NCBI GenBank assembly: GCA_944359725.1 | Contig: CALVSY010000003.1 | Span: forward strand, 1-64,000 | DNA: 64,000 bases | Source of the DNA: an uncultured Bacilli bacterium | GTDB lineage: Bacteria > Bacillota_I > Bacilli_A > RF39 > UBA660 | Reading direction: 5' to 3' | Shown: positions 42,925 through 54,489 of the stretch, one piece after another | How positions within the stretch are numbered: the stretch's first letter is position 1 | Layout: every line of letters starts with the position of its first letter | Made by a program: the position numbers and the translations under genes | Notes under the pieces: generated by a model | Seen by the model: the letters and a program-made list of their open reading frames with translations, nothing else | Database searches by the model: none | Told to the model about the DNA's origin: nothing

Positions 42925-43722
42925 ATGGAAAGTATAAGAAGTTTTAAATTATTTAGTAATAATAACGAAAAATCTGAAATGGTAGAAGAAAAAGTAAGGG
43001 AAAAGTTAACAAAAAATGAATTTGTTGAAAAAGAAAGTGGCTATGATTTAGCGATTGCAATCGGCGGGGATGGCTCGTTTTTAAGAATGGTAAAGCAAAC
43101 TAATTTTAATAGTAGCATTTTATATGTTGGAGTAAATGCTGGTACTCTTGGTTTTGCGCAAGAAGTAGAATTAAATGACATAGATGAATTTATTGAAGAA
43201 TTAAAAAATAATAATTATAAAGTAGATAGTATAGGTATTCAAGAAACAAAGGTTATAACGGATAAGGGGGATTCTAATTTTTACTCATTAAACGAAATAG
43301 TTGTAAGACAAAAGGATCTTAATACGATGGTTGTAAACGTAAAGATAGATGACGTGTTTTTAGAAAAATTTATTGGTGATGGACTTTTGGTTGCTACATC
43401 ATTTGGATCTACTGCGTATAATTTAAGTTTTGGAGGAAGTATAGTTTATAATACTTTTCATACTTTACAATTAACACCTATTGCACCTTTAAATAACAAA
43501 TCATATCATAATTTATTAAATTCTGTTGTACTTCCAGAAGATAAAGTAATTACTTTATTTCCGGTAAGTAGTAATGACTTACTTATAACGGTAGATGGTG
43601 AAAACAAATTCTATGATAATGTTAATCAAATTAAAACCGTTGTTAATAAAAAAAGAATAAAGTGCTTAAGAAGAAAAGACTATGACTTTTCTAAGAAAAT
43701 AAATGAGAAGTTTTTAAAATAG
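42925..43722 (+). CDS. nadK: NAD kinase
   Basis: Phosphorylates NAD to NADP. 266 residues from the ATG at 42925 (AGGGAG upstream). Motifs AIGGDGSFLRM near 50, GTLGFAQE near 75, the GDGLLVATSFGSTAYNLSFGG segment near 153, and VDGE near 226. Full length. Probably in one transcript with the CinA-like gene (20-base gap). Confidence 0.95.
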   Translation: MESIRSFKLFSNNNEKSEMVEEKVREKLTKNEFVEKESGYDLAIAIGGDGSFLRMVKQTNFNSSILYVGVNAGTLGFAQEVELNDIDEFIEELKNNNYKVDSIGIQETKVITDKGDSNFYSLNEIVVRQKDLNTMVVNVKIDDVFLEKFIGDGLLVATSFGSTAYNLSFGGSIVYNTFHTLQLTPIAPLNNKSYHNLLNSVVLPEDKVITLFPVSSNDLLITVDGENKFYDNVNQIKTVVNKKRIKCLRRKDYDFSKKINEKFLK

Positions 43723-51839: not shown

Positions 51840-52064
51840 ATGTTAAAAGAGGTAAAAATAGAACTTACTAATAAATGTTCTAGAAATTACAAATATTTTT
51901 CAAGTAATGCAATTAGTAAACCTGATAATTTAAAAGAATTAGGTATAAAGGATGCTATAAAAATTATCAAATAAGCAGAATTAATGGGTATTGATACAAT
52001 AGTTTTTACCGGTGGTGAGTCTTTAATGTATGATAAACTTTCAGATTTAATAGAATTAACATAA
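51840..52064 (+). pseudogene. radical SAM gene remnant
   Basis: Two fragments in one frame, split by a TAA at 51972-51974. The first holds VKIELTNKCSRN, where a radical SAM protein would continue CxxC; here the second and third cluster cysteines are Tyr and Phe. The second holds GIDTIVFTGGESLMY, the SAM-binding TGGEPL-type strand. Only ~75 codons remain, far too short. A dead fragment of a peptide- or tRNA-modifying radical SAM enzyme. Confidence 0.75.
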
Positions 52065-52098: not shown

Positions 52099-52107
52099 TG
52101 TTATAAT
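52099..52107 (+). promoter_or_regulatory. abi extended -10 promoter
   Basis: TGTTATAAT 21 bases before the Abi start codon. Confidence 0.6.
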
Positions 52108-52128
52108 AGAGGTACAAGAGGTGGCTTT

Positions 52129-53646
52129 ATGGAAACTAATTCAACTAATAAACTTATTACAATAGCAGAAAATAAGGGAATAAAATTTTTAAGAGGAGAT
52201 AGAGTTCTATTTAAAAAATATAGTTATTTTCAAGTTATTAATGCTTACAAAAACCTTTTTGCATATGATGAGGATAATATTGATGAGATAAAGGATAATA
52301 TTACAAATAAGATTAAATTAGATTATTATAGAAAATCTTTTCAAATAAAAGATGAAGTTGCAGATAGTGATTTATATGAAACAATATGTGATAGAATCTG
52401 CAAGAAATATGGATTGTGCGGAAAAACGTTACAAGAAAAAGAAGAACAAATAAAAATTATTAAATATCATCACCACATTTATAATCCTGAGACTTTATAT
52501 ACAGATTTTGTGAGAATGTATAAATTTGAACACGAATTAAGAATGATGTTATTAAAATATACATTAATAGTTGAAGAAAGTATAAAAAATATTTTTATTT
52601 CTTACCTTAATGACATAAGTGCTGAACCTAATTATTTAGTTAATATGGATAACTACAATACAAATTCCTTAAAATCAAAATCATTTGATACAATGAAGCT
52701 AATAATTGATAAATATGATAATCAAAAATCTAAACCAATAAAGAGAAAGAGGGATCAGCATTTGATTGTCCCATATTGGATTATTATAAATGAACTAGCT
52801 ATGAATCAAACATACTATGCAATTGCAAACTTGAATTCAAATAATTCGTATAAAATATTTTTAAGATGCTTAAACTTTTTTACGCAACTTAATTTATCAG
52901 AAGAGAATAGAGGAAAAACTCAAAAACAAATAATTTATGAAAAGAGAATGGTTAATAATTTCAAAACATTATTATGCTATTTAGGTGAATTTAGAAATAT
53001 GTTAGCCCATAATCAGCCAATATATTGTTATAATGTATTAAATTATAGTATTAATGGTAATTCTAAATTTGAATATGAATTACCAATGGCTAATCCTGAA
53101 TATAGAGATAAAAAAGGTAACAAAGTGCCTATTGAGAAACAGCAAATAAATATAATGGGATCATTAATGAATAGTTTAAGAGAATATTATGGCAGTGATA
53201 ATTTTAACTCAAATAATTCCACTAAACTAAATCTTTCAAAAATAATATACATTTTATATAAAATGTTACAACATATTGATAAAAACACTAATTTTTATTC
53301 AGAATTGGTAGAAATATATTCAAAATATAATATAGTTTTAAATAAATCTATTATTAAAGTTGAAAACCCAAAGCAAATCGATGAACTTAAAAGTGTTATT
53401 TCAGAACTTTCTAAATACGATATGGAAACATCTAGTTTTATTGAAAAAATTGAATCTGGAAAAGCATATAAAATGAAATTAAAAGCAAAAGAAAAACAAC
53501 TAAAAGAAATAATAAAACAAATAAATTCTATATCAAAAAATATAAACGTTAATGAAATTAAATCTAAATATAAACATTTTCCAGCAAGAAAACGATATAC
53601 TGAATTTACAGGAATAAATGCGAACTTTTTTACTAATATCAAATAG
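52129..53646 (+). CDS. Abi_2 (AbiD/AbiF-like) HEPN abortive-infection protein
   Basis: 505 residues, site AGAGGTGG. Abi_2 landmarks: N-terminal GIKFLRGDRVLFKKYSYFQVINAYKN, central FEHELRMMLLKYTLIVEESIKN, VPYWIIINELAMNQTYY-type helix, and RNMLAHNQPIY near 290, an R-x4-H HEPN ribonuclease motif. A Lys/Glu-rich coiled coil covers ~420-485, extending it beyond the usual ~300-400 residues. Such proteins stop growth of phage-infected cells, probably by RNA cleavage. AT-rich codon use; flanked by a dead gene and an RNA unit, so acquired DNA. Confidence 0.8.
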   Translation: METNSTNKLITIAENKGIKFLRGDRVLFKKYSYFQVINAYKNLFAYDEDNIDEIKDNITNKIKLDYYRKSFQIKDEVADSDLYETICDRICKKYGLCGKTLQEKEEQIKIIKYHHHIYNPETLYTDFVRMYKFEHELRMMLLKYTLIVEESIKNIFISYLNDISAEPNYLVNMDNYNTNSLKSKSFDTMKLIIDKYDNQKSKPIKRKRDQHLIVPYWIIINELAMNQTYYAIANLNSNNSYKIFLRCLNFFTQLNLSEENRGKTQKQIIYEKRMVNNFKTLLCYLGEFRNMLAHNQPIYCYNVLNYSINGNSKFEYELPMANPEYRDKKGNKVPIEKQQINIMGSLMNSLREYYGSDNFNSNNSTKLNLSKIIYILYKMLQHIDKNTNFYSELVEIYSKYNIVLNKSIIKVENPKQIDELKSVISELSKYDMETSSFIEKIESGKAYKMKLKAKEKQLKEIIKQINSISKNINVNEIKSKYKHFPARKRYTEFTGINANFFTNIK

Positions 53647-53692
53647 AATGTATATTTATTTAAAAAAAACATATAAATATAATGGTTACATA

Positions 53693-53721
53693 TTTACAAA
53701 GATATTAAAATATGGTATCAT
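53693..53721 (+). promoter_or_regulatory. promoter of the abi-linked small RNA
   Basis: TTTACA at 53693-53698, exactly 17 bases, TATCAT at 53716-53721 with TG at 53713-53714. Start predicted near 53728. Confidence 0.75.
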
Positions 53722-53727
53722 GAATAT

Positions 53728-53780
53728 GTAATTAAATTCCGTTATTGACGGGGGAAAGAGGAACTGAGGTTCCTTTTTTC
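53728..53780 (+). ncRNA. ~52-nt small RNA downstream of the Abi gene
   Basis: Between promoter and terminator there is no start codon with a ribosome site. Two hairpins: CCGT/ACGG (53739-53742 with 53748-53751, loop TATTG; two T-G pairs can extend it) and AGGAAC/GTTCCT (53759-53764 with 53769-53774, loop TGAG) followed by T's. A purine linker GGGAAAG joins them. It begins ~82 bases after the Abi stop and could be an antitoxin or guide RNA. Structured RNAs linked to abiF-type genes have been described; whether this is one I cannot check. Confidence 0.6.
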
Positions 53781-53789
53781 TTGCTATAA

Positions 53790-54353
53790 AAAGGAATAAA
53801 AAATTCCATTCATGTTGAAGGAATCTCTAGCTTTATTCATTTTTTAATTCAAAATCATGTAAAAAAAGATGTTGTAATAGAATATCTTAAATATCATTAT
53901 GCAGATGGTTCTACTAATGGCACTGGTATAAACAGATTATCAGCTGAAGAATATAAAAAGAATAACCAAGAAAAAATAAATATGATTAATCATGAAATTA
54001 ATAATGAGTATTTACTTATGAAGGTTATTGAAAGATTTGTATTAAAGGGTAACATAAGTGATAAAATGATAGATGCAATACTATTTGGGGTTAATGATGA
54101 TTTTATTTGGATTAAGAAGGAAGATATTATTAAGGTTATTTTATCTAAAAAAGATGTTTATTCTAGCGTTGTTCATTTTGGACCACTTACAATTCAACCA
54201 TTGGATAGATGTTTGAATCGAAATCCAAAATACGAAAAAAGGCGCTTTTGCATACAAGTTAAATGGTATAACTTAGCCGATGATATAATTGAAAATATGA
54301 ATGAATGTTATATGACTCAATCTTTATATAAAAACGAACCGCATCATTCCTAA
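53790..54353 (+). pseudogene. 5'-truncated gene remnant
   Basis: An open frame of 187 codons with no ATG, GTG or TTG before 53982, so the start is missing; from 53982 it would give 123 residues without a ribosome site. The sequence is well formed (VVIEYLKYHYADGSTNGTGINRL, HFGPLTIQPLDRCLNRNPKYE), looking like the C-terminal part of a soluble protein. Family not recognised. It ends exactly at the inverted tRNA-Gly fragment, suggesting a recombination junction. Confidence 0.6.
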
Positions 54354-54367
54354 GCTGTATACGGGAG
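54345..54367 (+). repeat. inverted tRNA-Gly fragment, 3' half
   Basis: AAGCTGTATACGGGAG (54352-54367) is identical to the anticodon-to-T-arm part of the tRNA-Gly gene that lies 50 bases further on the opposite strand. With one inserted T the match extends to TTCC of the anticodon loop. Confidence 0.8.
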
Positions 54368-54415: not shown

Positions 54416-54489
54416 TGGAGCAGGTGAGGAGAATCGAACTCCCGTATACAGCTTGGAAGGCTGTGGTTCTACCATTAAACTACACCTGC
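54416..54489 (-). tRNA. tRNA-Gly (TCC)
   Basis: 74 bases with encoded CCA, minus strand. Acceptor GCAGGTG pairs with CACCTGC. Anticodon TCC in loop CTTCCAA. Intact. Confidence 0.94.

Follow-up and report, generated by a model that had tools for sequence, protein, structure and literature searches.

A small RNA gene directly behind a long AbiF-type HEPN protein gene: a probable toxin-antitoxin pair in an uncultured Bacilli bacterium

Directly behind an Abi_2/HEPN protein gene of an uncultured Bacilli bacterium lies a short stretch that reads as a promoter, a structured RNA and a terminator, and the question it raises is whether this RNA controls the protein encoded next to it. The locus was analysed within the first 64,000 nucleotides of contig CALVSY010000003.1, a stretch referred to here as the window; its features are collected in Table 1. 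The first-pass annotation of this DNA had proposed that a toxic HEPN protein is paired with a tiny RNA, either as an RNA antitoxin or as part of an RNA-guided defence.

Table 1. Features of the abi-RNA locus, in coordinates of the window
Feature	Position	Strand	Basis
abi gene promoter, extended -10 TGtTATAAT, without a good -35	52099..52107	+	sequence; kept in close homologues
abi gene ribosome-binding site GAGGTGG	52118..52124	+	read from sequence
AbiF/AbiD-type HEPN protein gene (Abi_2), 505 aa	52129..53646	+	Pfam, PADLOC, homologue alignment, model
Left arm GTTACATATT of inverted repeat	53685..53694	+	compensatory changes in L051, L056
RNA promoter: TTTACA (53693-53698), 17-bp spacer, TATCAT (53716-53721), TG 1 base upstream of the -10	53693..53721	+	sequence; 17-bp spacing in homologues
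Right arm AATATGTAAT of inverted repeat, overlapping the predicted RNA start	53723..53732	+	compensatory changes in L051, L056
Putative antitoxin RNA, ~52 nt, predicted start G53728, single-stranded leader GUAAUUAAAUUCC	53728..53779	+	fold, homologue conservation
Hairpin 1 of the RNA, UCCGUU-AUU-GACGGG	53738..53752	+	pairing kept, sequence free to vary among homologues
Intrinsic terminator hairpin GGAAAGAGGAAC-TGAG-GTTCCTTTTTTC, doubling as the 3' half of the RNA	53753..53780	+	fold

The 505-aa product matches Pfam Abi_2 over residues 113-299 (E 1.6e-14; 55.1 bits vs a cut-off of 25.6) and the AbiD model of PADLOC (E 2.7e-11). It carries a single conserved RxxxxH motif of the HEPN type, RNMLAH (R289-N-M-L-A-H294), and the pattern RNxLAH is kept in 17/17 aligned homologues. 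An AlphaFold2 model built on 17 homologues (pLDDT 88) found one significant match in the PDB, the PbAbiF dimer bound to its ncRNA (8vz6; Foldseek E 8e-6), with which it superposes over 286 of 297 residues at a Z of 20.0 and an rmsd of 3.4. The next-best fold matches were Cas13d (Z 8.6) and Cas13a (Z 6.8), values to which common helical arrangements can also give rise. Relative to PbAbiF (505 vs 300 aa), the modelled protein has extra helices within its first ~112 residues and a helical hairpin at about 414-471, the size and place of both additions being estimates from lengths and anchor residues. This C-terminal helical hairpin represents the coiled-coil tail that the first-pass annotation had described as longer than usual. 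Judged by the predicted structure, the protein has the AbiF fold and belongs to a longer AbiF subfamily.

The entire promoter-RNA-terminator unit behind the gene spans 53693-53780. Positions 53728-53785 fold at -19.9 kcal/mol (z -3.5), a stability that 0/200 shuffled sequences attained, and the folded RNA is ordered as leader, hairpin 1 and terminator hairpin. Its earlier description as two hairpins joined by a purine linker was right in outline, but in the minimum-free-energy fold most of the linker is absorbed into the terminator stem. As had also been noted, the RNA contains no usable ORF. The promoter is present as originally read, with TTTACA, 17 bases and TGgTATCAT. Promoters with 10 of 12 consensus positions occur at chance level in this AT-rich DNA (28 sites found vs 26.2 expected), and the case for the RNA unit therefore rests on comparison, since it is recurrence behind homologous genes that lifts the promoter above chance. 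The strong terminator after ~52 bases likewise folds as a hairpin with a T-run and recurs in homologues, although a terminator scan did not list it because the stem extends into the T-run. The Rfam scan of the window and the locus returned no known family at the RNA unit, and sub-threshold matches to SSRC34, S774 and miRNA models were dismissed as chance. The search for tandem repeats within the unit and for a CRISPR array at the locus found neither. An alternative promoter slightly upstream (TATAAT at 53677) was rejected, its hexamer not being kept in two homologous loci (L027, L031), whereas TTTACA-17-TATnAT is kept. A weaker match of the RNA model at 43507-43561 (E 0.0076) has no such promoter, lies in coding-like sequence and was attributed to chance.

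Conservation of the RNA beside homologous abi genes was the check on which the earlier proposal hinged, and the proposal passed it: the unit lies directly behind the stop codon in 18/18 testable homologous genes (38-93% protein identity to the window protein), the homologues coming mostly from one bacterial order. Kinship among them inflates simple counts and makes the statistics given here descriptive, not strict probabilities. Spacing, extended -10, leader, hairpins and terminator all recur. Seven near homologues with 78-93% identity came from a genome_contigs search, and the unit is found in all six whose DNA continues well past the gene end; the seventh (L012), whose contig stops 71 bp after the match, was left out. 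Whole-genome searches added distant copies down to 38-49% identity, in which a 17-bp-spaced promoter comes right after the stop codon, with GTAAT close to where the RNA is predicted to begin, and then 4-10 hairpin pairs, a G/A-rich linker and a terminator. Homology between loci begins just upstream of the gene and ends at the terminator, and the flanking DNA is mostly unrelated. In one genome (G061) the gene has decayed through several in-frame stops and the unit behind it is still intact; a second and more decayed gene fragment (L035) is without the unit. No close relatives of either protein or RNA were found among viral_contigs, plasmids and phages, where the only match, at 25.6%, was in a Streptococcus satellite phage.

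Within the conserved unit, the parts of the RNA evolve in different ways. The leader GUAAUKRAAUNCC is nearly invariant, and its 13 nt are identical in 6/6 near homologues. The sequence of hairpin 1 differs wholly between homologues and its pairing is kept, as in CCGUU..GACGG, CCUCUC..GAGAGG, CUCCUGG..CUGGGAG and UGAUUAGU..ACUAAUCA. Double compensatory changes were present in 9/14 pairs (alignment A6), and the covariation score was 0.396 vs 0.251 for shuffled alignments, a real value reached in 0/500 shuffles and lost when the partner was slid. The two halves of hairpin 1 pair at -7.9 with their own partner vs -3.7 when swapped (0/2000). Overall, the RNA diverges by 2-9% vs 22-46% at four-fold degenerate sites of the gene, and RNA and protein distances are correlated (Mantel r 0.895; 0/5000).

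The RNA promoter is moreover embedded in an inverted repeat, whose two arms have changed together in L051 and L056 and so remain complementary (permutation fraction ~0.0004, counting Watson-Crick pairs). The repeat is weak or missing in L018 and L029 and can therefore be dispensed with. It may serve as an operator, or its arms may pair in read-through mRNA and thereby mask the leader. Because the leader also belongs to this repeat, part of its conservation may act at the DNA level.

A covariance model of the RNA, run on 385 genomes of the order, identified 21 RNA loci: 15 beside the gene, five solitary and one at a contig end (L045). The solitary RNAs (L048, L050, L051, L052 and L056) have no trace of the gene; L056 is the weakest match to the model (E 2.3e-4) and L050 is decaying, and L051 and L056 retain promoter and hairpins. 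Among the testable genes and the 385 genomes, whose assemblies are incomplete, no intact gene without the RNA was found, nor was a long abi gene found elsewhere in the genomes searched, incomplete as they are. At L048, 740 bp of upstream flank are ~90% identical to L031/L032 and run straight into the RNA, itself 94% identical; by this sequence comparison it is a clear case in which the toxin gene and the -35 of the RNA promoter were deleted and the RNA body was kept. Such asymmetry, with the gene always accompanied by the RNA but the RNA sometimes alone, is the pattern of a toxin-antitoxin pair. The solitary RNAs could be relics. On the reverse strand just upstream of the one at L052, a promoter-like stretch leads into a long hairpin, CACATGAG...CTCATGTG, with a T-run, possibly a further small RNA.

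From these comparisons it is likely that the locus is a two-gene AbiF-type toxin-antitoxin module whose RNA binds and blocks the HEPN nuclease, and the module probably has an anti-phage role. The 505-aa ribonuclease would dimerise through its HEPN domain and, when free, would cut cellular RNA and cause growth arrest. The downstream gene, with its own strong promoter and terminator, would yield a short-lived RNA of ~52 nt, with an unpaired 5' leader, the variable hairpin 1 and the terminator hairpin, which would bind the protein and block the nuclease. Since the toxin gene has an extended -10 only and the RNA promoter has both a -35 and an extended -10, the RNA would be expected in excess over the toxin. 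Phage infection or stress that halts host transcription or degrades RNA would remove the RNA first and thereby free the nuclease. Transcription, RNA-protein binding, inhibition, toxicity, dimerisation and a phage trigger are what we infer for this pair. Of the two possibilities originally raised, RNA-guided defence found no support. The comparative evidence speaks strongly for an RNA-antitoxin pair: gene and RNA are obligately associated, the RNA covaries, the toxin has been lost naturally at a locus where the RNA stayed, and the protein fold matches that of an ncRNA-bound AbiF.

In the guided alternative the RNA would not inhibit the nuclease but activate or guide it, recruiting it to phage RNA in the manner of Cas13. 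This reading draws on the resemblance of the fold to those of Cas13d and Cas13a, with Z values below that for PbAbiF, and on the proposal that AbiF is the ancestor of Cas13 (PMC12737573). A guide should, however, vary, and here the unpaired leader hardly changes; the surroundings of the locus contain neither a repeat array nor a variable segment resembling a spacer, the HEPN motif is single, and an activator leaves unexplained why the RNA outlives loss of the protein. We regard this reading as very unlikely. Just as unlikely is antisense control of the type I kind, in which the small RNA would pair with the start of the abi mRNA and block translation. A small, strongly conserved RNA with its own promoter would suit such a role, but it lies downstream of the gene in the same direction, not opposite to it. 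In most homologues, the pairing of the RNA with positions -30..+40 of the gene beside it does not exceed that with shuffled targets (in the window -8.3 vs a shuffled mean of -10.4), a clear excess being seen only in L031, and pairing with the abi start was rejected on this ground.

The element might also be no RNA antitoxin at all but only a conserved terminator, an element for 3'-end processing and regulation of the abi mRNA, or a small RNA whose targets are other genes. The terminator does make up half of the unit, the arms of the inverted repeat could pair in read-through mRNA, and solitary copies exist. Nevertheless, an extended -10 promoter with 17-bp spacing, a near-invariant leader and a covarying first hairpin would be superfluous for a terminator, and the element is strictly linked to one protein family; explanations of this kind are very improbable. 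With the toxin-antitoxin module thus preferred, a more far-reaching version of it is possible though rather doubtful: a distinct AbiF toxin-antitoxin class with an autonomous downstream antitoxin RNA gene, independent of toxin transcription, in which a solitary RNA persists and protects against incoming copies and in which free toxin or the complex may control RNA synthesis through the co-varying inverted repeat.

Other Abi_2 genes of the same order have flanks of their own. Loci with 295-aa Abi_2 genes (L003, L004, L005 and L061-L081) share another conserved RNA motif, ~ACUYAGGAAACUUUYGAAGCCCURAGUC, which flanks both gene ends, in the 5' UTR behind the promoter and just past the stop codon; L003-L005 gave no Rfam match. 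Two genes of ~330 aa (L083, L085) are followed by GTCCRCRCGGGATACTTAGGATCA; in L085 this repeats, in inverted orientation, the TGATCTTCGGTATCCTGTGTGGAC that stands before the gene, so that the mRNA ends could pair together. A ~310-aa Abi_2 homologue is nearly universal in the order, occurring in 187/198 sampled genomes, G000 included. At the two examples L086 and L088 no flanking RNA is obvious, and the gene that follows encodes a putative membrane protein, as though an Abi gene had turned into a core gene. In the window, the stretch directly upstream of the abi gene (51841-52063) was recognised by eye as what is left of a radical-SAM-like gene, interrupted by in-frame stops. Further downstream, the 16 bases at 54352-54367 repeat exactly, in inverted orientation, part of a tRNA gene (minus strand, 54419-54489) 71 bases away, perhaps the relic attachment site of an integrated element; a 123-aa ORF (53982-54353) without a family match precedes them.

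Pairs of AbiF and an ncRNA acting as toxin and antitoxin have been known since 2025. PbAbiF, to whose structure the protein was matched over 286/297 residues (Z 20), reportedly has an associated ncRNA named AbiFr (Zilberzwige-Tal et al. 2025, as cited in PMC12373285 and PMC12737573). It shares with the locus described here the protein fold and an associated ncRNA, and differs in length, having 300 aa where the present protein, with its enlarged N-terminal part and helical C-terminal insert, has 505; it is possible that the RNA found here already falls within the covariance models of that study. The closest counterpart studied so far comes from C. difficile: its AbiF is toxic, R202/H207 in the RNxxxH motif being required, and the small RNA RCd22 neutralises it in trans by binding it directly (PMC12373285). 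In this AbiF-RCd22 pair of phage phi027, too, an Abi_2 HEPN protein adjoins a structured small RNA that runs from a sigma-A promoter to an intrinsic terminator (PMC12373285). However, RCd22 precedes the toxin gene within the 5' UTR of the toxin's transcript, is about 88-132 nt long, starts from a promoter that read-through makes serve the gene as well, and contains two RF03085 motifs (PMC12373285), whereas the present RNA lies downstream, measures ~52 nt, has its own promoter and has no RF03085 match; the protein here also exceeds both PbAbiF and proteins of the L. lactis type in length. The proposed covariance search with this abiF motif gave no match at the locus (E up to 10), in the genome or in five homologous loci, and samples of the class and phylum yielded nothing over the cut-off and thus no positive control for the sensitivity of the model. 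Because the RNA lacks an RF03085 match and lies downstream, the known AbiF mechanism is transferred here by protein homology (fold and motif) and genetics only.

In type III systems (ToxIN, CptIN and TenpIN) an upstream RNA made of tandem repeats is separated from the toxin by a terminator, and there is one promoter (PMC5086642). These systems resemble the present pair, as inferred, in joining a ribonuclease toxin to an RNA antitoxin with an abortive-infection logic. The present pair has a single downstream RNA unit without repeats, two promoters, a different gene order and a HEPN toxin fold rather than that of ToxN, and so falls outside canonical type III. Cas13 of type VI CRISPR is a HEPN RNase relative (Z 8.6, 6.8), and AbiF-RNA pairs are its proposed ancestors, but the locus has one HEPN motif where type VI has two, no CRISPR array and no guide segment. 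The new arrangement of this AbiF-type pair is nonetheless real: a separate downstream transcription unit, an RNA outside RF03085 and a longer AbiF subfamily. It suggests that the Rfam abiF model misses such RNAs, and AbiF antitoxins are therefore probably under-annotated. The subfamily offers a compact pair that lends itself to testing and whose antitoxin has a gene of its own, together with natural solitary RNAs and one natural toxin deletion, and the freely changing hairpin beside a fixed leader suggests which parts of the RNA the protein reads.
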